From a virus, in IMG/VR virus record IMGVR_UViG_3300020129_000743, positions 1-21,862 of that record: a DNA stretch of 21,862 nucleotides, one strand, 5' to 3'. A program made the position numbers and the translations under genes. The notes under the pieces are model-generated. The model saw only the letters and a list, made by a program, of their open reading frames with translations. It searched no databases and had not been told where the DNA came from. Positions 2,657 to 21,862 of the stretch are shown piece by piece (the stretch's first letter is position 1; each line of letters opens with the position of its first letter).

Positions 2657-4803
2657 CGATAGGCCCCCGTCGAAAGAACCTCACGGAGCATCGGCCAGAT
2701 CTCATTTCCCATCTCGGTACGGAAGTCGGCGCGCGAGGGGCCGCGCGTTCCGAGCCGCGGGGTCGGAGACCGGAACCCGTCGAGCCGAAGCGCGCCGCTG
2801 CGCGATCCCGACGCGGACGGCGTCGCCACGCGATCGATGAACTTGTCGAGCTTCATCAGGACGCGGGACCAGGAGTCCGTCTCGTTGTGGCGAAGAATCG
2901 CCTCGTCCCGGCCGAGCATTGCGTGGACCCCGTCGAGCCCGCGCACACCGTTCGTAATCAAGCCGCTCTGGGCGAAGTAGGGATTTGCGAAGGATCCGCG
3001 TGGGGCAGCCATGCCGCCCTGCTGGGCGAAGACGGCGCCCGATGCGATCGTCGAGCCCGCGCCGCCGATGAGCGACCCGATGAAGCCCCCGATCGTTCCC
3101 ACGATCGAGGACTTGATGAGCTGCGCCACGAATTCGAGGATCGCGCTCGCGATCGTCTTCATGAAGGTCTCGAACCGGTTCGCGCCCTGCGTGAGCCCGA
3201 TGATCGCGCTTCCGATCCCGGACCCGAGGGCCGAGATCGCGGAGCTCAATAGTTTGAGCTGCTTCGTTCCCGTCTCCGCGGCTGCGGCAACGGCAAGCGC
3301 GGGCCGATAGGCCGAGTCCCCGTAGGCTGGGATCACCCGGAACTGGGGCGGCCCGCCGTTCACCCCTTCCTGGCGCTCGGGGCGCGCCATGTATTCCGTG
3401 GAACGCTCGTTCAGGAGCTTCGTCCACTCCTCGTCCGAGAGCGTCGGCCCATAGGGACGCCCTTTCGTGAGGTTGTAGAGCTCCTTCGAGATGATCGCGA
3501 TCTCCTGCACCGTGAGGGCCTGCTGGCGCAGCGCTTCGAGCTTCTTGATCTCCTGGTCCAGCGTGATCGCGCCGATCGAGCGCTGGTACTCCAGGAGCGG
3601 GATCGTGATCTTCGTCTGCTCGTACTGATCCCGCGCCTGTTTCACGAGATCCTTCATCGCCTGGTTCGGTCCGGGCGAGACCGTCTTGATCGTTCCGAAG
3701 TCGACGATCCCCGGGGGCGGCGTCGCCTTCCCCTGGTCCTGCGTCTCCTTCCGGAACTGGTCCAGATCGTCGAGCCATCCGAGCATGTGCTCGTGGAACC
3801 AGGTCCCGAACTTATCGAAGGACGCGATCGCACCGTTCGCCCAGTTCAAGATCGCGGTCCCGGCCGGCGCGAGTGCAGCCGTAAACTTGTTCAACTCGCC
3901 CAGCATCGAGAGCTTGAACTCAAGCCCCGCCTTCCGCGCCGCTTCCGCCGTCTTCTCCATCGACGGCGTGAGCGTGATGCCGAGCTGTTCCGCCAGGGCC
4001 TGCGCCTCGGTCTGGTTTTGCTCGAGCACGGGGAGGATCGTTCGGGCACCCCGGCCGAAGAGCTCGAACGCCTCGGACGCGCGCCGCGCGGGGTCGGGGA
4101 TGTTGAAGAGCGCCGCCTTCACGTCCTCGAGCACGGTGCCCGTACTCTTCGCGAAGCCGTTCGAATCCGTGAGCGAGACCCCGAGCGTCTGGAAGGCCTT
4201 CTGCGCCTCCTTCGACCCGTCTCGCGCTTCGCCCAAATGGCGGACGAACATGAAAAGGGGCGCCTGGACGTCTTCGAAGGTCTCGCCGGCGCGGGCCGCG
4301 GCAACCCGGAGCCCACCGATCTCCTTCGAGCTGAGACCGGTCGTGTCCCGCATGATGTCGACCTGGTGCTGGAACTCGCCGATCCGCCCCGCCGCCGAGA
4401 TCGCCACGGTCCCGAAGAGCGTGAGACCGGCGATAACCGCGCTCACAGCGATACCCACGGGCCCCATCGAAGCCGCCACGCGAGAGATCGCCGCGACCTG
4501 CTGTCCGAGACCCGAAGTCACGCTCTGCATCGCGCCCTGGAGCTCCGCCTGCGCCGCCTGGAGCGCCGTGGTGCCCTGCGTGACCTTCGCCATCTCGGTA
4601 TGGAGCGCGCGCTGCGCCGCGGCCTGATTCAGCACCGCCTGGCCGAGCCGGAGATTGCTCTGGTAGGAGCCGTCGGCCGCGGCCCTGGCCCGGGTCACCT
4701 CGTCGCTCCAGCGCTTCACATCGGCGATCGACTGCCCCAAAGCCGACGCGGCACGGTTCTGGGCTTCGATCGAGATTTCTACGCTGGTCTTCTCAGTCCC
4801 CAC
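2653..4803 (-). CDS. Tail tape measure protein
   Basis: 716 aa, GTG start immediately after the TGA (4806-4804) of the frameshifted chaperone frame. It is the longest tail gene and follows the tail assembly chaperone, the usual place of the tape measure. Seen: an N-terminal helical, Ala/Gln-rich region (residues about 1-110), a hydrophobic segment at about 112-137 (MGPVGIAVSAVIAGLTLFGT), a conserved-looking stretch at about 155-255 (GLSSKEIGGLRVAAARAG, then ASEAFELFGRGARTILPVLE) typical of TP901-type tape measures, and a second hydrophobic Gly/Ile-rich region near residues 560-600. The C-terminus has a phage-typical GLDGVHAMLGRDEAILRH motif. The protein sets tail length and is ejected with the DNA. 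With the usual rule of about 0.15 nm per residue, a tail near 100 nm would be expected (inference). Confidence 0.9.
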   Translation of the reverse strand: MGTEKTSVEISIEAQNRAASALGQSIADVKRWSDEVTRARAAADGSYQSNLRLGQAVLNQAAAQRALHTEMAKVTQGTTALQAAQAELQGAMQSVTSGLGQQVAAISRVAASMGPVGIAVSAVIAGLTLFGTVAISAAGRIGEFQHQVDIMRDTTGLSSKEIGGLRVAAARAGETFEDVQAPLFMFVRHLGEARDGSKEAQKAFQTLGVSLTDSNGFAKSTGTVLEDVKAALFNIPDPARRASEAFELFGRGARTILPVLEQNQTEAQALAEQLGITLTPSMEKTAEAARKAGLEFKLSMLGELNKFTAALAPAGTAILNWANGAIASFDKFGTWFHEHMLGWLDDLDQFRKETQDQGKATPPPGIVDFGTIKTVSPGPNQAMKDLVKQARDQYEQTKITIPLLEYQRSIGAITLDQEIKKLEALRQQALTVQEIAIISKELYNLTKGRPYGPTLSDEEWTKLLNERSTEYMARPERQEGVNGGPPQFRVIPAYGDSAYRPALAVAAAAETGTKQLKLLSSAISALGSGIGSAIIGLTQGANRFETFMKTIASAILEFVAQLIKSSIVGTIGGFIGSLIGGAGSTIASGAVFAQQGGMAAPRGSFANPYFAQSGLITNGVRGLDGVHAMLGRDEAILRHNETDSWSRVLMKLDKFIDRVATPSASGSRSGALRLDGFRSPTPRLGTRGPSRADFRTEMGNEIWPMLREVLSTGAYR

Positions 4804-5470
4804 TCACCGCCCCATGCTCTTCGCCATCGCGGCCCGTAGTTCCGAGCCCTCCGGCAAGGTGTCGAGCCAATCCGCCCACGCCTCCCGCGACTTCCCCAGG
4901 ATTTCCTCTTTCCCCTCCGCCTCCCCGTTCGGCGTCTGCTTCTGCTCCCACTCGCGCGCGCGCCTCAGGACGTCCAGGTCGAACGCAAGGTCATCGAGAT
5001 CGAGGTGTCGCAGCTCGGACGGGAGCCGCCCGAAGGCCTCCCCGATCGCGTAGAGGGAGAGGAGGTACGGCAGGTGTTCAAAGCGCCCTCCGTGCGGTCT
5101 CGGTCTTCACGGGCGCGAGCGCGCTCAGGATCTGGGATCCCAACCAGTTGAGATCCGTCCAGAGAACGGCCGAGATCGGAAGCCACTCCACGTCCTCGCC
5201 CGGCTCCGTGAAATCTTTCGCCGTGTCGTCGAGGAGCTTCGGCGAGTCGACGCACTGGAGCGCGAGCGCGCGGTTCAATGCGTTCTGCTGCTCGACGCTC
5301 TCCTTCGAGACCACGACCTCGCCGTCGTCCTTGTAGGTGAGTGGCGGGAGGTTCCCGAAGACGGCCCCGTACTCGTCCGCCGTGGGCCGGTGCCACTGGT
5401 AGAGTTGCCCCGAGGGGCCCACACCCTCTCCTCGAGCGCGGGCCCCGTACTGCTTCGCGAGATTTCCCAT
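4804..5470 (-). CDS. Tail assembly chaperone, long frameshift product (gpGT-like)
   Basis: Predicted fusion of 221 aa made by a +1 shift at CTT-TGA: codons 1-130 are read from 5470 to 5081, base 5080 is skipped, and 91 further codons are read from 5079 to 4807, ending at TGA 4806-4804. The second frame (EHLPYLLSLYAIGEAFGRLP at its start, AAMAKSMGR at its end) has no ATG, GTG or TTG for its first 74 codons, so it can hardly be translated on its own. Its content is helical and charged (DLDVLRRAREWEQ, REAWADWLDTLPEG), as in gpT-like extensions that bind the tape measure. Long-tailed phages commonly make two chaperone forms by frameshifting between the tail tube and tape measure genes; this is that position. 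The shift itself is inferred from the sequence. Confidence 0.8.
5078..5094 (-). promoter_or_regulatory. +1 ribosomal frameshift site CGG AGG GCG CTT TGA
   Basis: On the coding strand the last codons of the short chaperone read CGG AGG GCG CTT TGA, followed by ACA. The Leu codon CTT can slip +1 onto TTT, after which GAA CAC CTG continues the 91-codon open frame. GGAGG lies exactly 3 nt before CTT, the arrangement of the bacterial prfB (RF2) frameshift site. The base after the stop is A here, not the C found in prfB. Shift direction is fixed by the frames: +1 (or -2) joins them, and -1 does not. Confidence 0.8.
5078..5470 (-). CDS. Tail assembly chaperone, short product (gpG-like)
   Basis: 130 aa from ATG 5470, with an AAGGGGGAG Shine-Dalgarno just upstream, ending at the in-frame TGA that is also the frameshift stop. 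Function is by synteny: it sits between the major tail protein (5501-6562) and the tape measure (2653-4803), where lambda-type gpG chaperones lie. Seen: KQYGARARGEGVGPSGQLYQW near the N-terminus, a middle with KDDGEVVVSKESVEQQNALN and a C-terminal WLPISAVLWTDLNWLGSQIL segment. The short form would coat the tape measure during tail assembly and be absent from the virion. Sequence similarity to a named family is not recognised. The frameshift architecture downstream is the strongest support. Confidence 0.8.
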   Translation of the reverse strand: MGNLAKQYGARARGEGVGPSGQLYQWHRPTADEYGAVFGNLPPLTYKDDGEVVVSKESVEQQNALNRALALQCVDSPKLLDDTAKDFTEPGEDVEWLPISAVLWTDLNWLGSQILSALAPVKTETARRAL

Positions 5471-5500: not shown

Positions 5501-6562
5501 TTACGTACCGGTCGTCTGGATCACCCGGAAGTCGTCCGTGCCCGTCCCGGCCATCGTGTCCGGATACATGAGGCCGTTGAACGTGAAGCCCACGACGCCC
5601 TCGCCCTGGTAGACGGGCTTCGGATCGTCGATCACGACCGGCTTCACCGCGCCCGAGCACTGGATCGTGAGCGAGTCGTTCGCATCGACGTAGTACTTGA
5701 GCTGCAGGTTCTCGCGCGTCGGCGAGAAGAAGTCGGTGAAGAGCGTCACCGCGTCCGCGGTCGAGATGTCGTCGAAGTCCATCTCGAACGCCGCAGACAG
5801 GGTCGGGAACCCTGCACGCGTCGGAAGCGCCAGCTCCTGGCCCGACGCGGCACCCAGGAAGGGCTCGTAGCGGAGATTGTTGTCGAGCGTGAAGACGATC
5901 CGCTTCGCCTTGAAGTCCGTGGTCGGAGGGTTCGCGGCGCCGATATAGAGGCCCGAGTTCGCGGACTGGATCGCGTGCTGCCACGCGAGCGTCGTCCCCG
6001 TGATATCGGCGAATCCCGGCGCCGAGCTCGACGCGTACTTCTGCCCCGTCCCCGTGAGCTGGAAGCGAAGCTGCGCGTTCGCCTCCATCGTCATGATGAA
6101 GCGGTTGATGCACACGTCCTGGACGACCCGCGGCGAGAGCGCGTTCGTCCCGTCGTGCGGGATCTCCCGGATCGTGAGTGAGCGGTTGTAGAAGCTGCCG
6201 CCACCGTCCGCCGTGCTCGGATCGACCGGAGGATCGTTCAGCACGTACGTGTGCGTGAACGGAGCCGACGCGCCCGTCTTGATCCGCTTCGAGAACGCGG
6301 ACGTGAGAAGCGGGAGGAGCGCCGTGTCGTTCGCGACATATTCCAGCGTCACCTCGAAGTCGGTGAGCGAGATCGTCTGCCAGAGCTGGGACGCGCGCGG
6401 CATGATCTGCCCCGTCGTCACACGCGGCTGATTCGTCTGGCGCGTCGAGAAGATCGAGCCCGTCCGGATGAAGGCGGCCGTGGTGAGCGAGCTCTGCACC
6501 GTTCCGAACGCGGACTGCATTCCGAAGCCGATATAACTTGCCCGCCCAATCGCCTTCCCCAT
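5501..6562 (-). CDS. Major tail tube protein
   Basis: 353 aa, ATG start two bases or fewer from the preceding stop TAG (6565-6563). It starts MGKAIGRASYIGFGMQSAFG, a common opening of phage major tail proteins (glycine-rich start with a G-x-Q-S/T-x-x-G motif). The rest is beta-rich: LTDFEVTLEYVANDTALLPL, RFQLTGTGQKYA, RIVFTLDNNLRYEP, ending with VVGFTFNGLMYP and a short Thr/Asp-rich tail. This fits the tail-tube fold of siphoviruses, where hexameric rings stack to make the tube. It lies directly upstream of the tail assembly chaperone and tape measure, the normal order. The size is at the larger end for tube proteins and leaves room for an extra surface domain, but I cannot delimit one. No tail sheath gene is present, which supports a non-contractile tail. 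Confidence 0.8.
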   Translation of the reverse strand: MGKAIGRASYIGFGMQSAFGTVQSSLTTAAFIRTGSIFSTRQTNQPRVTTGQIMPRASQLWQTISLTDFEVTLEYVANDTALLPLLTSAFSKRIKTGASAPFTHTYVLNDPPVDPSTADGGGSFYNRSLTIREIPHDGTNALSPRVVQDVCINRFIMTMEANAQLRFQLTGTGQKYASSSAPGFADITGTTLAWQHAIQSANSGLYIGAANPPTTDFKAKRIVFTLDNNLRYEPFLGAASGQELALPTRAGFPTLSAAFEMDFDDISTADAVTLFTDFFSPTRENLQLKYYVDANDSLTIQCSGAVKPVVIDDPKPVYQGEGVVGFTFNGLMYPDTMAGTGTDDFRVIQTTGT

Positions 6563-7772: not shown

Positions 7773-8077
7773 TATCCCCGCACCTCGAGAAGCCCCGGAT
7801 CCCAGCGCTTACAAACCTTGAGCGAGAATTCGAGCGCCGTCTTCGCACCCTGGAGCGCGACGTAGGCGAGTGCGCGATGCTGGGGCGGCTTCGCGTCCTG
7901 CTCCCGATTGAGCCGCGCCACGTCGATAAAGATCCGGCGCGCACACTCCGCATTCGCCTGCTGCGCGACTTCGAGCGGCTGGCGGATCGAGCCGTAGGGA
8001 TCCCGGAAATACGGCCGGCCCGTTCCGGGATCTCCCCAGAGCGACCACCCGTTGCTCAATTTACCGACCAGGGTCAT
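7772..8077 (-). CDS. Hypothetical neck-region protein
   Basis: 101 aa, starting MTLVGKLSNGWSLWGDPGTG. The frame is open further upstream, but ATG 8077 overlaps the preceding TGA as ATGA, so this start is preferred over a long overlap with the connector gene. The N-terminal 35 residues are Gly/Trp/Pro-rich (SLWGDPGTGRPYFRDPYGSI), and the rest is helical (EVAQQANAECARRIFIDVAR, ALAYVALQGAKTALEF). The N-terminal piece reads like a sequence that describes or binds a small turn structure, but no family is recognised. Its position between the gp6-like connector and the gpG-like protein suggests a head-closure or neck role, which is inference only. Confidence 0.6.
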   Translation of the reverse strand: MTLVGKLSNGWSLWGDPGTGRPYFRDPYGSIRQPLEVAQQANAECARRIFIDVARLNREQDAKPPQHRALAYVALQGAKTALEFSLKVCKRWDPGLLEVRG

Positions 8078-8894: not shown

Positions 8895-9251
8895 TCAGTT
8901 CCAGAGCTCTCGCCTCTCGCGCTGCTCGCGCAGAAGCGCCTGCTCCACTTCCCGGTTCAAGATCTCGTCGCTCCCCGCGTCGCCGTTTATTTTCCGGTTC
9001 ATGAAGTCCCCGATCACAACGCGGGCCGCGAAGATCGTCGGCCACCAGTCCGTCTGTTCGCCGCCTTTGGACATCCCGCGCGCGTCCTCCTCGAGCTTCA
9101 ACGCGCGATAGACGTCCTTCGCATCGAGTTGCTCGGCGAACTGCTTGGGTTCGAGGTGCCGGCCGTCGGCATGGACAAGCCACGGCCGGCCCTCTTCGTC
9201 CGCGTGGAGCTCCCACTGTCCCGGGAGCTCCACGATCTTGTGCGACGCCAC
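8895..9251 (-). CDS. Hypothetical protein after the capsid gene
   Basis: 118 aa, GTG start three bases beyond the TAG of the capsid gene, with no clear Shine-Dalgarno, so it probably depends on coupling to capsid translation. N-terminal segment KIVELPGQWELHADEEGRPW followed by LVHADGRHLEPKQFAEQLDA reads like a short beta hairpin plus helix. A middle stretch (SKGGEQTDWWPTIFAARVVI) is followed by a strongly charged C-terminal helix (VEQALLREQRERRELWN). No family is recognised. The compact spacing and codon use in step with neighbours support a real gene. Confidence 0.6.
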   Translation of the reverse strand: MASHKIVELPGQWELHADEEGRPWLVHADGRHLEPKQFAEQLDAKDVYRALKLEEDARGMSKGGEQTDWWPTIFAARVVIGDFMNRKINGDAGSDEILNREVEQALLREQRERRELWN

Positions 9252-12142: not shown

Positions 12143-14353
12143 CTACGCCGCTTGCTGCTGCTCTTGGTCGCGCCAGACAAAGACGGGCGCACAACGGCAG
12201 TTGTCGCCGTCCGCGCCGTCGCAATTCGGATTCGGGACCTGCGATCCCCAGTCCTCGGGATCGAGCTCTTCTCCGTCCATCGCTTCACACGCGGGACAGG
12301 TCGCGCCGTCCATCATCGCGGAGTAAAAGACCGTGGCGATTTCGTCCTGCATCGCCTGTCCCTGCTCGACGCGCCCCGTCGTGTAGGCCTGGGTCATCTT
12401 CCCCGCGACGAGGCTTTGCACCTTCGGGATCGAGAGCGCTTCGAGCGCGCTCCGCACGGCCGCGGTGACTTCTTCCGCGGGAAGCTCCTGGTCCTGCGCC
12501 TGCTGCCCCGCGCGCACTGCTTCCTGGAGCATCGGGAGCGTCATGCCCAACGCGAGCCCCTGCGCGAGCCGTTTGATCCAGGTCTGCTGCTTCGACGTGG
12601 GTTCCGCGGGGTACTGCGACGCGAGATCTCCGCTCGCTCCGCTCGCCGCCTTCTTCACACGCGCGCGCTGCGCTTCCTCGAGCACGTGCCTACGCCCTGT
12701 GCGATAGGAATCGGTCAATCCCGCGGTGAGCGCGTTCGTGAGTTCGGGAAGGAGCGGCTTCGGAAGCTGACCCTGCGCGAGCTGCGCTTCGCTCGCCGAT
12801 CCCGCCGCCGCGGCGAGCGCTTTCACCTGCTCCTGGCGAATCGGGAGCACGTCCCGGTACCAGAGCTTGCTCGGCGAGTGATCGAGGTGATCACGCATCG
12901 CCGACCAGTCCACACCCTGCTCATGCGCGAGCGGTGGCCGGCGCATCGGATAGGCTGGACTCACGCCGACGGCGCCGGCGCGCTTTCGCATCTTCTTCGT
13001 GTCGGACGTACCGGCCTTGGCGGGCGACGCGGCCGGAGGCCGTTCTCCGCGGGCGTTTGGCTCCTGCGCGGTGGCGGCCGCCGCATCGCCCCCACCAAAG
13101 CCGGTCTGCTGCTGCGGAATCGGTTCGAGCGTCGCGGGATCCTCGTCCGGAAAGGCGAGCTTCTGGCGGAAGTACTGGCGCAAGGGCTGATCGACCCGGA
13201 TCACGCCCCACTGGACGAGTGGGCCCATGAGCTGCGCGAGCCGATCCGGTTTCGCCTGCAGGAAGTTCTCACACACGAGCCGCGGATACCGCTCGCGCTC
13301 GCCGTAGTTGAGATCGACCAGGTCCTTGATCGCCTGCGCACCAAAGTCGTCCGAGACCTGATTAGCGACGCCCTGGTAGGCGTAGAGCATGAACTCGCTT
13401 TGGATCTCACCAACGGCGCGCGCTCCCTTCTCGCCCTGGCCCAAGGACTGCCATTCGGAAAGCATGCAGCTTTCGATCTGCTGGTCGTGGTAGTGCGCGC
13501 TCTCGAGGCAGTTCGCGTTATTGCCCTGGGGGAACACGGCGTGGAGTTCGAACACGCTCGGGATGTACATGGCCTGGTTCTGGTGGATCCGAAACTGCGA
13601 GATCGCGCTCTTCGCCTTCTCGATCTGCTCGGGCGACGGGGTCTGGTTCTCTTTTGACTGCACCCAGAAGACGCCGCCGGCGCGCTCTTTCTGGATCGCA
13701 TCGAAGCCCAAGATCGAGCGCTTCCAACGCCAGTGTGGGTGCGCGGGACGAAGGATCGACTCGCCCCACCAGTTGTCACCTTCGCGGTTGAAGGAGAGAA
13801 CGACGAGGTTCGCGGCGGGCATCGTCTTCAAGCCCTTACGCTGTGTCCACTGGGTGACGCTATCGAGGCCCGAGGGACCGGAGTCCGTGAGATTGAAATG
13901 CCAGATCGTCTTTGCGGGCCGCGGCTCGAACGCCGCGATCACCTGCTTCCCGTCAGAGGGGCGATAGCCGTAGATCTTCTCGAGCACGCTGTATCCGTGC
14001 ACGGTCATGAGGAGTGCGGAGCGAAGCGTCTGATACCACGTCCCGTACCCGGCGTATCCGTATGCTTCGCCCGGCATCAGGACCGAGCGAACGAACTCCG
14101 CGATCTCGTCCTCTTCTGGATTCCCCTTCTCGACGGAGTCGACGCGCCACTCGGCCGCGAGAAGGCAATAGAGAAGCCGGTTGATGCAGCTCCGCACCTT
14201 ACCGTCGCTCTTTCGCATCTTCTCGTAGGTCTGGACCGCGTTCTGCGGGGTGTTGAGATCGACGTTGTACTCTTCGGGCGTCCAGAGCTCGTTCCCGTAG
14301 GTAAAGGCGCCGGCGTCGCCAATCCCTGTTCCCACGCGCTCAAGCAAAGGCAT
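12143..14353 (-). CDS. Portal protein fused to a MuF-type C-terminal domain
   Basis: 736 aa, ATG start overlapping the terminase stop by 14 bases; GGAGGG lies about 12 nt upstream. Residues about 1-400 match DUF935/Mu gp29-type portals: NTPQNAVQTYEKMRKSDGKV, SCINRLLYCLLAAEWRVDSV, YGTWYQTLRSALLMTVHGYS, MPAANLVVLSFNREGDNWWG, RPAHPHWRWKRSILGFDAIQ. Residues about 415-500 are Ala/Pro/Gly-rich and probably a linker. The rest is helical, and residues 680-722 carry the MuF motif: SAMMDGATCPACEAMDGEEL followed by NPNCDG and NCRC, with cysteines at 686, 689, 711, 719 and 721. In Mu these are two genes (portal gp29 and head protein gp30/F). Portal rings are the DNA entry gate and dock the terminase. MuF domains are minor head proteins that help assembly or carry ejected effectors. 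No toxin domain is seen after the MuF motif. Confidence 0.85.
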   Translation of the reverse strand: MPLLERVGTGIGDAGAFTYGNELWTPEEYNVDLNTPQNAVQTYEKMRKSDGKVRSCINRLLYCLLAAEWRVDSVEKGNPEEDEIAEFVRSVLMPGEAYGYAGYGTWYQTLRSALLMTVHGYSVLEKIYGYRPSDGKQVIAAFEPRPAKTIWHFNLTDSGPSGLDSVTQWTQRKGLKTMPAANLVVLSFNREGDNWWGESILRPAHPHWRWKRSILGFDAIQKERAGGVFWVQSKENQTPSPEQIEKAKSAISQFRIHQNQAMYIPSVFELHAVFPQGNNANCLESAHYHDQQIESCMLSEWQSLGQGEKGARAVGEIQSEFMLYAYQGVANQVSDDFGAQAIKDLVDLNYGERERYPRLVCENFLQAKPDRLAQLMGPLVQWGVIRVDQPLRQYFRQKLAFPDEDPATLEPIPQQQTGFGGGDAAAATAQEPNARGERPPAASPAKAGTSDTKKMRKRAGAVGVSPAYPMRRPPLAHEQGVDWSAMRDHLDHSPSKLWYRDVLPIRQEQVKALAAAAGSASEAQLAQGQLPKPLLPELTNALTAGLTDSYRTGRRHVLEEAQRARVKKAASGASGDLASQYPAEPTSKQQTWIKRLAQGLALGMTLPMLQEAVRAGQQAQDQELPAEEVTAAVRSALEALSIPKVQSLVAGKMTQAYTTGRVEQGQAMQDEIATVFYSAMMDGATCPACEAMDGEELDPEDWGSQVPNPNCDGADGDNCRCAPVFVWRDQEQQQAA

Positions 14354-17977: not shown

Positions 17978-17990
17978 TGTAGTTCCTACA
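17978..17990. repeat. Small inverted repeat TGTAG-TTC-CTACA
   Basis: A perfect 5-bp inverted repeat with a 3-nt spacer lies 17 bases before the ATG of the zinc-ribbon gene. It could be an operator or part of a folded leader; it is too short to call. Confidence 0.35.
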
Positions 17991-18003
17991 CGTCGCCTAG
18001 CCG

Positions 18004-18069
18004 TCTGACTGACAGACAGACAAGATGTGTCCCGTAGGGACACACCTTTGTCCGTGTCCGTCAGTCAGA
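18004..18069. repeat. 66-nt nested inverted repeat before the small-gene block
   Basis: TCTGACTGAC (18004-18013) pairs with GTCAGTCAGA (18060-18069), and TGTGTCCC (18026-18033) with GGGACACA (18037-18044) around GTA. The arms between them also pair in part, giving an imperfect stem of about 30 bp. It sits in the 167-bp gap between the primase-helicase and the zinc-ribbon gene, where a promoter or operator would be expected. No U-tract follows on either strand. Confidence 0.75.
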
Positions 18070-18207
18070 AAACCGGCATAGGAGCGTCCCTGACCACCAC
18101 TCGCGTTGTCGTTCAGTAAGTAGAGCATCTAAATATCGAGATCGCTTGATGTTGTCTCGCGTGAGACTGACGGACAATCGCCGCTTTGTCCGTCAGTGTC
18201 CGCCAGT
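18008..18207. repeat. Iteron-like cluster of TGTCCGTCAGT
   Basis: Five copies of the 11-mer TGTCCGTCAGT lie in 200 bp: 18055-18065 and 18187-18197 exact; 18166-18176 exact and inverted; 18197-18207 with one mismatch (TGTCCGCCAGT); 18008-18018 inverted with one mismatch. Further TGTCCGT heptamers are at 18049-18055 and 18235-18241. The inverted pair 18166-18176 and 18187-18197 makes an 11-bp stem with a 10-nt loop inside the end of the primase-helicase gene. The set resembles iterons of an origin or a multi-site operator. Confidence 0.7.
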
Positions 18208-20027
18208 CGGTAGCGATAGACCCACTTTCTGGCCTGTCCGTCTCCTTGGGCCACCCGTTCGCTGGTTCGGACCGTTCCGATTTCCTCGCGGCGGCGTTTC
18301 ACGGTCTTCTCGGAGAGCCCTGATTTGATCGCCGCCTCCCGATCTGTGAGTCCGACCAGGCCGGCATGGAAGTAGGCGTCCCGGATCTTGTCGACGTTCT
18401 CCGCCTTCCGTTTTTCGGGGCTGTAGTCAGTGACCTCGAACCCGGAGTGCTCGGGTCGAGTCAGGTAGATCGGTGCGATCGGGGGCGCGTTGTTCGTCTT
18501 GGGGAACCGGAGCGAGAAGAGCTCGTCCTTCTTGATCTGTGTGAGGCGAATCAGGGCCTTGCAGTCGGTGATCATCCGGCTCGTGCCGCGCACGGCGTCG
18601 AGATCGTCCAGTTCCTTTCCCGAGCTCGGGCTCTTGGGCTCGTGGTGGACGAGCTCGATCGCGGTCCCGGTCTCTTCGCTCACCTCGTCGAAGCGCCGGA
18701 GCACCTGGCCGAACTCGACCGCTTTGTTCTCGTCGGTCGAGTGGGCGCGGGAGAGGGCGTCGATGATCACGAGATCGAGCGCCTGATGCTTGCACCATTG
18801 GGCGAGCGCCTTGTAGTCGTCCGTCAGCATGTCGACCGCGCCGCGGAGATCGGGGCGGGAGATCACGCGCACGCGGGAGAGATCGGCGTCGGGCGACTTC
18901 TCGAGGATCCATCCGAGCCGCTTCTGGAAGAACCCGGCGTGCATTTCGAGCTCGAGGATACCGACCCGGAGCGGACCCTTCGCCGGCGGAGCGAGACCGT
19001 AGAGCCCGCGGCCCTGGGAGAGCTCGATCGCTTGCTGGAGGATCGCCCAGGTTTTCCCGAGTCCGGGCTTCCCGTAGAAGATCACGAGATCGCCAGCGGA
19101 GATGAGTCCGTTCCCGAGAATGGACGGGGGCTCGGTATAGGGGCGCGCCATGAACTCGCCGAGCTCAAAGTCGGCGGCGACGAAGCGCTGGGAGGGTGTG
19201 ACGAAGGGTATCGCCGCGGTCGCGAGCTCTTCCAGCTTCTCCTTCGTCCCGCCGATCGCGAGCCAGTCGGACACGTCCTGCTTCCCTTCGAGATCGGGGA
19301 GCGCGAGCACCTTGACGCACGAGACCCACTCCGCAATCGCGTCGCGTACCTTCTCGGCGTGTTTCTTTCCTGGGTCGTCGTTGTCGGGAAGAATCACGAC
19401 TTCCGCAGCGCCGGCGAGTTGGTCTGTGTACTGTGGCAACCAGGCTGCGGCGGCGCCTTGCGGCGCGGTCGTCGCGGTCAATCCCATCGCCGCGAGATTG
19501 TCCGCGTCCTTCTCCCCTTCGACGATGTAGATCCGATGCCCATAGTGACGCGCGGCGCTGAGTTCCACCGCGCGGTAGAGCACACGGCGCACGCCGTCCA
19601 AATTGTCGATCCACATCGGGGCGGGAGGTTCGAGGTTTGAGGGCCGGCGCTGCTTAAAATTCTTGTGCTCGTCGCGGACGACTTGGTAGAGGAGCGTGCC
19701 GCGATCGTCGTGGTAGTCGTAGCTCGCGGTGATTTTCCCGAACGGAGGCCGTCCCTGGCCTTTTATCCCATCGTGGGATCCGTTCGGTTTAGCCGAGCTC
19801 CACGTCGACTCGAAGAGATCTCGCTTCTCGATCCCTTTGGCCGAGAGGATCGCTTCGAGCGTGCAGCCGGCGCGACACGTGAGAAGGACCTTCTGTCCAT
19901 CGTCGCTTTGCTGAATTCGTAAGGACGGGGCGTGATCGTCGTGCGCGGGGCAAAGGACGAGGTAGCCCTTCCCCTCGGGGCGTGGTGAATCGAAGCGGCT
20001 CAGTACGCGATCGAGTGCTGCCCCCAA
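18129..20027 (-). CDS. Primase-helicase with C-terminal HTH
   Basis: 632 aa from TTG 20027, preceded by AAGGGGAGG; no other usual start codon is in frame before an ATG at 20273 that lies upstream of a terminator-like hairpin. Domains in order: a zinc-finger primase part with Cys26, His29, Cys51, Cys55 (VLCPAH and TCRAGC); a Toprim-like part with VEGEKDADNL (Glu170) and PDNDDPG (Asp215, Asp217); a RecA-like RepA/AAA_25 helicase with Walker A GKPGLGKT (about 319-326), Walker B VIIDAL (Asp423) and ELVHHEPKS at about 460; and a C-terminal winged-helix-like segment (GLTDREAAIKSGLSEKTVKR). It would unwind DNA and prime lagging-strand synthesis for phage replication. It fuses primase and hexameric helicase functions. 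The final 25 codons overlap the iteron-like repeats. Confidence 0.85.
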   Translation of the reverse strand: MGAALDRVLSRFDSPRPEGKGYLVLCPAHDDHAPSLRIQQSDDGQKVLLTCRAGCTLEAILSAKGIEKRDLFESTWSSAKPNGSHDGIKGQGRPPFGKITASYDYHDDRGTLLYQVVRDEHKNFKQRRPSNLEPPAPMWIDNLDGVRRVLYRAVELSAARHYGHRIYIVEGEKDADNLAAMGLTATTAPQGAAAAWLPQYTDQLAGAAEVVILPDNDDPGKKHAEKVRDAIAEWVSCVKVLALPDLEGKQDVSDWLAIGGTKEKLEELATAAIPFVTPSQRFVAADFELGEFMARPYTEPPSILGNGLISAGDLVIFYGKPGLGKTWAILQQAIELSQGRGLYGLAPPAKGPLRVGILELEMHAGFFQKRLGWILEKSPDADLSRVRVISRPDLRGAVDMLTDDYKALAQWCKHQALDLVIIDALSRAHSTDENKAVEFGQVLRRFDEVSEETGTAIELVHHEPKSPSSGKELDDLDAVRGTSRMITDCKALIRLTQIKKDELFSLRFPKTNNAPPIAPIYLTRPEHSGFEVTDYSPEKRKAENVDKIRDAYFHAGLVGLTDREAAIKSGLSEKTVKRRREEIGTVRTSERVAQGDGQARKWVYRYRLADTDGQSGDCPSVSRETTSSDLDI

Positions 20028-20071
20028 ACCTCCCCTTGCCCGAGCCTGTTGGATGGCTCGCCCGTTCCCGG

Positions 20072-20110
20072 AAAAAGCAAAACGCTCCCCGGTGTGAGAA
20101 CCGGAGAGCG
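20072..20110 (-). terminator. Terminator-like hairpin upstream of the primase-helicase
   Basis: On the minus strand CGCTCTCCGG (20110-20101), loop TTCTCACA, and CCGGGGAGCG (20092-20083) form a 10-bp stem with one mismatch, followed by TTTTGCTTTTT (20082-20072). This is a standard intrinsic-terminator layout. It lies 45 bases upstream of the TTG start, so it would act on RNA entering from the divergent region, or as an attenuator. Confidence 0.6.
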
Positions 20111-20227
20111 CCCGACTCTTGAGATCGAGCTCCCTCGCTGCCGTGATCGTGGCAGGGGCAAGGATGTCTGGAAGAACGGCGCGAAAGTACGTAGGATCGC
20201 GGACGGCGGTCAAGCGGAATTTTCGCT

Positions 20228-20258
20228 GTTTCGTTTTGGCGCGTCCGTATGCTATAAT
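20228..20258 (+). promoter_or_regulatory. Extended -10 promoter for the lipoprotein gene
   Basis: TGCTATAAT at 20250-20258 is a perfect TATAAT with the extended TGn motif. The -35 region (about 20228-20235) is poor, as is usual for extended -10 promoters. Transcription would begin near 20265, giving a leader of about 47 nt. The perfect TATAAT stands out in this GC-rich sequence. Confidence 0.7.
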
Positions 20259-20311
20259 TCCCTTCCCGCGCATGGGACACGGACGTCCGCCACGTCCATT
20301 CTGGAGGTCCC

Positions 20312-20974
20312 ATGTTGAGCCGTACCGCACTCGTGTACCTGCTCCTGGTTCTCACTGGATGCGCCTCGGTGCTCGCTTCGAAAGAGAAGACGATCCCCTT
20401 CACGTCGACGCCGTCCGGGGCCGAGGTCCTGATCGACGGGAAGAGTTATGGCCCCACGCCGGCGAAGATCCGTCTCCAGCAAGGGAAGGACTACCAGGTC
20501 GCGTTCCGGATGGACGGCCATCCCGACCAGACCCACGTGCTGCGGAATAGCGTGGGCGGCGGGTGGGTCGTGCTCGACGTTGTGTGTGGACTCCTGCCGG
20601 TCGCGGTCGACGCCGGGACTGGGGCCTGGCATGCCCTCAAAGCAAGCGCGGTCGTCGCGGACATGGACAGGGGCACGGTATCGGAGCTCAACTGGAGCGG
20701 GAAGGATGTGGGCCCGGCTGTCGTGGGGCGCGTGAAGGACCTTCCGGACAGTGGGGTCGCGACTGCACCCCTCGTCGTCACGTTGACCACTGGGCGCACG
20801 ATCGAGGCGTTGCGGATCGCGGCTAAGAGCCGGGACACGCTTCGGATCGACTGCACGGACGGGCGGACCGAGTACGTCTACACGAGTATGGTCAAGTCGA
20901 TCGTGAGCTTGAACGAGATCGACATGACGAAGCGCGTCGTGCGTGGTCTCGAAACGGTGCCGGCCGAGCCGTAG
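20312..20974 (+). CDS. PEGA-type lipoprotein, probable lysogenic-conversion gene
   Basis: 220 aa from ATG 20312 with GGAGG just upstream. The start MLSRTALVYLLLVLTGCASV is a lipoprotein signal: a short basic start, hydrophobic core and lipobox LTGC, with Cys17 the lipidated residue. Residues about 28-75 fit a PEGA surface domain (PFTSTPSGAEVLIDGKSYGP, then TPAKIRL, YQVAFRMDGH). Next comes a glycine- and hydrophobic-rich GGGWVVLDVVCGLLPVAVDA typical of small PEGA lipoproteins that carry such a hairpin. The C-terminal half is a second beta-rich domain (APLVVTLTTGRTIEALRIAA, TEYVYTSMVKSIVSLN). The protein would be anchored in a membrane. It has its own promoter, points away from the phage operon and precedes the integrase, so a prophage-expressed moron role such as surface change or superinfection exclusion is plausible, but unproven. 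Confidence 0.75.
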   Translation: MLSRTALVYLLLVLTGCASVLASKEKTIPFTSTPSGAEVLIDGKSYGPTPAKIRLQQGKDYQVAFRMDGHPDQTHVLRNSVGGGWVVLDVVCGLLPVAVDAGTGAWHALKASAVVADMDRGTVSELNWSGKDVGPAVVGRVKDLPDSGVATAPLVVTLTTGRTIEALRIAAKSRDTLRIDCTDGRTEYVYTSMVKSIVSLNEIDMTKRVVRGLETVPAEP

Positions 20975-20980
20975 CCGATC

Positions 20981-21862
20981 GTGGGCCGAGAACCTGTCGG
21001 CCCAAGGATGGGCGAACTGAGAGACCTGGTCCTACGGGACTATCGGATCAACGAGCGCCGAAGCATTGGCCGCGCGCGGGCCGCGTTCGCGCACCTGTCC
21101 CAGCTCGAGGTCGTGCCGCTACGTGGCGCCCACGACGTGACGTCCCGCTACGCCGCGCGCCGCACTCGAGCGGGGGCCGCAGCCGCGACGGTGCGCTACG
21201 AGCTCGCGATGCTACGCCGCGGGCTCACCCTGGCGCATCGCGCCGGGAGGATCGAGGCGAGGCCCGCGCTCCCCACGATCCGGGTCCAGAACGCGCGGCA
21301 GGGCTTCTTCACGGATCAGGAACTCGAGCTCCTGATCGCGGCGCTTCCCGACCCAGTGGACGACATGGCGCGGTTCGCGTCGATCACGGGCTGGCGGATC
21401 TCGGAGATCCGGTCCCTTACGTGGGACCAGGTCGACCGGCGCGCGGGCTTGATCCGGCTCGGTCCCGGGACGACAAAGAACGGCGAGGGTCGCGTCTTCC
21501 CATACGGGGCCCATCCCGAGCTCGCGCACCTCTTCCGTTGGCTCTATTCCCGCCGGATGGGCGAGCACGTCTTTCACCGAAGCGGGCGGCGCGTGAAGCA
21601 CGTCGCGGGGAGTTGGAATCTTGCTTGCCGAAAGCTCAAGCTCGGGCGTAGGGTGTTCCACGACTTGAGACGGACGGCCGTTCGCAATATGGAGCGCGCC
21701 GGCGTCCCGCGATCGGTACAGATGAAACTCATTGGGCTCAAGACGGAGTCGATTCATCACCGCTATGCCATCACCAACGAAGAAGACCTCGCGCGCGGCG
21801 TCGCGCTCCTCGCGGCGAAAGAAAGACCCGGCGGCAGTCGCACTTGGGAAGCGTCGAGCTAA
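20981..21862 (+). CDS. int: Tyrosine recombinase / integrase
   Basis: 293 aa from GTG 20981, six bases after the lipoprotein stop; ATG 21008 is an alternative start, and neither has a clear ribosome site. Core-binding part at the N-terminus (DLVLRDYRINERRSIGRARA, VRYELAMLRRGLTLAHRAGR). Catalytic part: Arg139 in ITGWRISEIRSLTW, Lys166 in GTTKNGEGRVF, His227 and Arg230 in VFHDLRRTAVRNM, and Tyr262 in SIHHRYAI. The usual GHK motif before the tyrosine is IGLK here, so Leu253 replaces the conserved His/Trp. The enzyme would integrate and excise the phage at an attachment site. The stop TAA is at the last bases of the window, so the att site is not visible. It is probably co-transcribed with the lipoprotein gene. 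Confidence 0.85.
   Translation: MGREPVGPRMGELRDLVLRDYRINERRSIGRARAAFAHLSQLEVVPLRGAHDVTSRYAARRTRAGAAAATVRYELAMLRRGLTLAHRAGRIEARPALPTIRVQNARQGFFTDQELELLIAALPDPVDDMARFASITGWRISEIRSLTWDQVDRRAGLIRLGPGTTKNGEGRVFPYGAHPELAHLFRWLYSRRMGEHVFHRSGRRVKHVAGSWNLACRKLKLGRRVFHDLRRTAVRNMERAGVPRSVQMKLIGLKTESIHHRYAITNEEDLARGVALLAAKERPGGSRTWEASS

Follow-up and report, generated by a model that had tools for sequence, protein, structure and literature searches.

A probable phage replication origin of mirrored iterons behind its own primase–helicase gene

Short repeated and mirrored motifs at the end of a replication gene raise the question of whether they mark a replication origin or an operator, and of which protein would read them. 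Such repeats occur around the 3′ end of a primase–helicase gene in a virus contig of 21,862 bp (IMG/VR record IMGVR_UViG_3300020129_000743), which was analysed at its whole length and is referred to here as the window. The original prediction had proposed an origin bound by an initiator or an operator bound by a regulator, perhaps one of the small zinc-binding proteins encoded downstream. The comparisons made in this study render it very probable that the repeats are iterons of a phage replication origin, i.e., a rep-ori module, read by the adjacent primase–helicase.

The 11-mer TGTCCGTCAGT occurs in three exact copies (plus strand at 18055 and 18187, minus strand at 18166), and two further copies have one mismatch (minus strand at 18008, plus strand at 18197); TGTCCGT heptamers additional to the 11-mers lie at 18049 and 18235. 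These counts are the same as originally predicted, and both the inverted pair described within the coding region (18163–18200, inside the primase–helicase CDS) and the 66-nt nested inverted repeat described in the gap (18004–18069) are real. All exact copies in the 21,862-bp record fall inside 143 bp, a count that covers a possibly partial genome, since ORFs extend beyond either end of the record and it may be a fragment. When the whole window was shuffled 200 times with its dinucleotide composition kept, three exact copies of an 11-mer in 240 bp were reached once, so that the signal from the window alone is modest; no second place in the window matches this density. Positions of all features are collected in Table 1, in which the iterons are given relative to the coding strand.

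Table 1. Features of the repeat array and its neighbourhood in the window, and displaced arrays in three related loci
Feature	Record	Position	Strand	Remarks
Primase–helicase gene, 733 aa	window	18129..20330	-	Pfam Toprim_2 + AAA_25; PHROG primase/helicase; model matches T7 gp4 and RSF1010 RepA
Predicted winged-helix coding region, residues 638–709	window	18204..18419	-	H-H-H-wing in AlphaFold; winged-helix structure matches; lower identity than primase/helicase among close relatives
Outlying half-copy TGTCCGT	window	18235..18241	+	within CDS
Left-cluster iteron ACTGGCGGACA, one mismatch	window	18197..18207	-	forward on coding strand
Left-cluster iteron ACTGACGGACA, exact	window	18187..18197	-	forward on coding strand
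Left-cluster iteron, exact	window	18166..18176	+	inverted relative to coding strand
Candidate unwinding element, lowest-GC 50-mer	window	18106..18155		GC 38% vs 65%; spans stop codon between clusters
Right-cluster iteron ACTGACGGACA, exact	window	18055..18065	-	forward on coding strand; followed by half-copy ACGGACA, 18049–18055
Inner hairpin TGTGTCCC-TAC-GGGACACA	window	18026..18044	- (coding strand)	C-rich 5′ arm; TGTGTCCC-GTA-GGGACACA on +; perfect 8-bp stem
Right-cluster iteron, one mismatch, inverted	window	18008..18018	+	outer arm of nested inverted repeat 18004–18069
Displaced array and hairpin	L206	~7841–8030
Displaced array and hairpin	L207	~6050–6240
Displaced array and hairpin	L208	~8955–9150

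The array covers the stop codon of the primase–helicase gene (about −78 to +125), and its left and right clusters flank the 50-mer of lowest GC content in the record. This AT-rich centre fits an unwinding element, and GC minima, or nearly so, were found in the same region of the two closest relatives (loci L004 and L099). GC skew was considered as origin evidence and rejected as inconsistent: the cumulative minimum of the window is at 18,409, and none of four complete replicons bearing such arrays has a skew extreme at its array.

Folded as single-stranded DNA, the nested inverted repeat reaches −25.7 kcal/mol (z −7.9). Its inner hairpin, an element that the original prediction had not singled out, has counterparts of different sequence but the same C-loop-G form at the same place in relatives. 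Among 15 hand-picked primase loci, nearly all of them array-bearing, 10 carry a hairpin with its C-rich arm first no farther than 230 bp from the stop codon, while the expectation from the rest of those contigs is 0.02 per 230 bp. T7-like GTC priming sites beside the hairpin were also considered and set aside, as no conserved copies were seen by eye in the Rhizobium-phage group described below.

The primase–helicase gene encodes in a single 733-aa ORF a TOPRIM domain (residues ~267–355), a RepA/RecA-fold helicase of the AAA_25 family (~399–567), and a predicted C-terminal winged helix (~638–709). In an AlphaFold model, which was built from a 27-sequence alignment and has a core pLDDT of about 90, the primase and helicase parts together match T7 gp4, and the helicase matches RSF1010 RepA (1g8y) with a TM-score of 0.78 by target length and an rmsd of 3.1, a match that concerns the fold only and not the hexamer state. 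When residues 638–709 were predicted alone, winged-helix DNA-binding proteins filled the structure matches (Z about 8). The winged helix is a common fold, so that these matches present a plausible reader and do not indicate function; on the predicted structure, this domain is the probable reader of the repeats. Elsewhere in the window, a gene for a PEGA-domain protein (20312–20974, +) lies directly upstream of a tyrosine integrase gene (20981–21862, +), and this pair faces away from the primase–helicase gene. The last ~80 residues of the portal ORF (12143–14353, −; 736 aa) match a PHROG head-maturation-protease family, perhaps representing a fusion.

Exact searches of viral contigs with the words of the window identified no other phage with this word: the matches for TGTCCGTCAGTGTCCG were all unrelated, and the inverted pair had no match. 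The two closest relatives, whose records share the sample number of the window, encode primase–helicases that are 56% (L004) and 53% (L099) identical to that of the window, and the repeat words behind their genes are GAGGTTTGGACAA and ACAGATGTCGG, respectively. Whether the repeat is conserved in related phages therefore has a divided answer, since these relatives retain the layout but not the word. Counted from the stop codon, the window has iterons at −68, −47 (inverted), +64, and +111 (inverted) with the hairpin at +85; L004 has them at −49 (inverted), +60, and +107 (inverted) with the hairpin at +80; and L099 at −62, −41 (inverted), +46, and +95 (inverted) with the hairpin at +69. The hairpin of the window (Table 1) corresponds to CCCCCCC-TAAA-GGGGGGG in L004 and to CTCCCCCC-TAC-GGGGGGAG in L099. 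At up to two mismatches, the words of the window, L004, and L099 occur at three, zero, and one other places in the sequence examined, respectively. The three origins align poorly as plain DNA and are comparable by register only. Genome contigs yielded six distant relatives, of which the 3′ ends of three (L093, L094, and L098) were read; no obvious array was found at those of L093 and L094. In L099, an ORF (3426–3941) opens right behind the primase stop codon and reads through iterons and hairpin; by eye only, its end resembles that of the 118-aa protein encoded downstream of the array in the window.

Within this trio, the helix-turn-helix core is 41% identical between the window and L004, 14% between the window and L099, and 23% between L004 and L099, whereas the primase and helicase parts are 54–68% identical, i.e., the winged helix is more diverged. 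The window and L004, the more similar pair, have the half-word GGACAA in common. These sequence comparisons suggest that reader domain and repeat word change together, a wording chosen short of proof because the trio is a single one; the whole comparison of winged helix with word comprises this close trio and one conserved group, the Rhizobium-phage group, in which a constant word was observed alongside a conserved winged helix.

A wider survey covered 75 primase loci and asked how the most repeated 8-mer of a 320-bp segment surrounding the primase stop codon compares with the remainder of each contig. At 21 loci, compared with 1.5 expected, repeat clustering at the primase 3′ end was among the highest 2% of the contig, although these are not fully independent cases because some of the loci are related; at 17 of the 21, no other place in the contig equals the primase end. 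The array words are mutually unrelated (ATTACAGT, ACGGCGGGT, AAGGTCCA, CCAACTAG, GGTACGCA, and others), and the helicases of array loci include both AAA_25 and D5-type proteins. Named replicons with arrays are Rhizobium phage RHph_Y3_1, the Salinibacter plasmids pSR11 and pSR14, and a Roseomonas plasmid. By the same measure no array was detected at the primase end in Arthrobacter phage Tank, Microcystis phage Mae-JY30, and a Streptomyces plasmid; with many relatives lacking one at this place, the arrays are common and not universal. Four loci (L062, L051, L033, and L047) have GGGACA repeats and a well-conserved GGACACTCTCTAGAGTCC hairpin just past the primase stop codon, and this group probably represents a further form of this type of origin. 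In pSR11 (L184/L188) and pSR14 (L186/L189), a terminase-family gene lies beside primase and array, which indicates that these Salinibacter "plasmids" may be phage-plasmids or satellites.

The Rhizobium-phage group, which provided a test by DISPLACEMENT, comprises 19 loci encoding relatives (70–88%) of the RHph_Y3_1 primase. An array of CGTTCCCA or CATTCCCA stands behind the stop codon in 16 of them. The other three (L206, L207, and L208) have no such array there; a closely similar word, with its parts in the same order, is located 2.6–3.7 kb downstream, with other ORFs intervening. At these displaced sites the iterons are still accompanied by the C-loop-G hairpin, whereas the hairpin found after the rep stop codon is a different one. 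In its C-terminal part, the L206 protein shares 68–73% identity with members whose array adjoins the gene. An array that keeps its word apart from the gene is what a cis-acting site would show if the protein reading it is encoded at another place, and the displaced arrays speak against two other causes, namely coding constraint and a rep terminator. Across 15 distinct hairpin sequences of this group, 100% of cells are paired and both sides have changed in three of seven pairs; the covariation score was reached by none of 500 shuffles, although the sequences are related.

These data bear on two rival explanations. Repeats might have arisen by chance or by neutral growth in the coding tail and the gap, as the occurrence of an exact 11-mer triple in one of 200 shuffles would allow, but relatives with other words keep the same register, positional enrichment is strong over the 75 loci, and the hairpin has compensatory base changes; this explanation is already contradicted by the comparative data and its probability is negligible. 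Alternatively, the nested hairpin might end the primase transcript as a terminator or other RNA element, with the repeats as by-products. A stable 66-nt stem-loop shortly behind a stop codon would suit that role, and in the archaeal plasmid pRN1 the rep gene is followed by a terminator as well as by an origin stem-loop (PMC4234260). Yet Rfam, tRNA, promoter, and terminator scans gave no match at the array site, the terminator scan of both strands of 18004–18069 found no GC stem with a T-run, the left cluster lies inside the CDS, and in L206–L208 the hairpin travels with the displaced iterons while another one follows the rep stop codon, all of which make termination a very improbable function.

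Somewhat more weight, though still little, is due to an operator, at which the repeats would bind a regulator, either a small downstream protein or an autoregulating primase–helicase, and control the operon from 17967. Just upstream of the next gene, the array is suitably placed; winged helices are typical regulator folds, and iteron-binding Rep proteins can also regulate transcription. Nevertheless, no promoter was found at the array by a scan that covered sigma-70-like promoters, the array and hairpin can be kilobases from the gene in the Rhizobium-phage group, and neither a GC minimum nor a nested hairpin is expected of an operator. The downstream gene also differs by inspection between the window and L004 while the layout is kept. 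We consider an operator unlikely, in particular that of the small zinc-binding protein originally suggested, as the downstream 118-aa protein has no family match and the array is retained in L004 beside a dissimilar downstream gene. The origin half of that prediction is favored by the conserved architecture, the local GC minimum, the predicted winged helix, and the same arrangement in many relatives. Short palindromes are present between the origin and the next gene, both in the window (17982–17996, GTAGGAACTAC) and in L004 (~5360–5376, TTGTAGAACGTACAA), and represent a possible promoter or operator.

A centromere-like partition site or a packaging site, bound by a winged-helix or another DNA-binding protein, would be compatible with those structure matches that are plasmid centromere-binding winged helices (AspA and pNOB8), and repeats of such size occur in parS-like sites. 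This function is quite improbable considering that no ParA-like gene was noticed among the ORFs of the window, that the candidate reader is fused to a primase–helicase, and that arrays follow the primase gene in a wide variety of phages and plasmids.

As a replication origin, the locus has its nearest counterparts in phage satellites. The C-terminal domain of SaPI Rep reportedly recognises iterons directly downstream of its own gene (PMC7581432), and PICI origins consist of two iteron sets around an AT-rich region just behind rep, such rep-ori regions driving plasmid replication (PMC6092414). Similar to these, the origin of the window is immediately 3′ of rep with two iteron sets flanking an AT-rich stretch, and the C-terminal domain of its Rep is the proposed, structure-predicted reader. 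Unlike the SaPI Rep kinds (D5/Primase_Cterm or DUF927), the helicase of the window is of the AAA_25/RecA fold (RepA-like), its C-loop-G hairpin is nested between inverted iterons, and the element is not a satellite, since its genes include ones with PHROG matches to a portal and a head protease and, with a weak match, a probable terminase. Satellite origins are a known kind of origin, and the window would represent a variant of it, carried by a phage that encodes capsid genes and having a helicase of another class; most likely, a satellite-like layout is here read by a different kind of primase–helicase through its own C-terminal domain.

Other systems share single components with the window. 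In the P4 alpha protein, a TOPRIM primase, a helicase, and a winged helix that binds repeats form one polypeptide (PMC4234260). Likewise, the protein of the window combines a TOPRIM primase and a predicted C-terminal winged helix in one chain. The P4 helicase belongs to SF3, whereas that of the window is AAA_25 only, with no SF3 domain; the repeat words are unrelated, and P4 has ori and crr whereas one cluster was seen in the window, possibly a partial contig. RSF1010 has iterons, RepA helicase, ssi hairpins, and three separate proteins (PMC4234260). The window resembles this IncQ system (RepA-RepB′-RepC and oriV) in its helicase fold (1g8y) and in having iterons plus a hairpin as a candidate priming site, and differs in that its primase is TOPRIM/T7-like and its putative reader is fused to the helicase, in place of a separate RepC initiator and RepB′ primase. 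In pRN1, the origin downstream of rep needs a stem-loop of poorly conserved sequence, and Rep has a C-terminal winged helix (PMC4234260); the window likewise has a stem-loop behind rep and a predicted C-terminal winged helix, whereas pRN1 lacks iterons and has a prim-pol primase and an SF3 helicase. In the RepA/ori of Vibrio cholerae PLE, reader domain and origin swap together, and a phage nuclease mimicking the reader cuts the origin (PMC8263062). As in PLE, reader domain and origin in the window and its relatives would co-vary as a swappable module, and an origin-cutting nuclease can select for other modules; the PLE initiator is a RepA_N protein without helicase or primase, and its iterons are ~30 bp. 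The window would work like these systems and is a formal member of none.

For the replication origin favored here, we infer the following course from the observed sites and the predicted fold. The C-terminal winged helix of the primase–helicase would bind the 11-bp sites, arranged as two mirrored clusters around the AT-rich stretch at the stop codon, and replication would start here. The RepA-like helicase ring would load onto the opened DNA, and the TOPRIM domain would lay primers. Within the right cluster, the nested hairpin may become accessible in single-stranded form, as a structure for priming or loading.

Tentatively, and with slightly less than even confidence, we suggest that these loci represent a widespread, undescribed origin class of phages and phage-like plasmids, in which a T7-like primase, a RepA-type helicase, and a C-terminal winged helix are joined, the origin (mirrored iterons, AT-rich spacer, and C-loop-G hairpin) lies behind its own gene, and the reader domain changes in step with its repeat word, a process that competing elements or nucleases cutting at origins may be driving. 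That word turnover is driven here by pressure like that of the origin-cutting nuclease acting on Vibrio satellites is speculation by analogy. If such a class exists, the layout would not be unique to satellites, contrary to one paper, and the loci described here look like counter-examples to a satellite-only layout. If this reading is right, the origins of many uncultured phages would be findable from sequence through a local repeat word behind the primase–helicase gene, and the pairs of reader domain and repeat word would form a natural data set from which the DNA preferences of winged helices could be learned, as well as a source of independent replicons.
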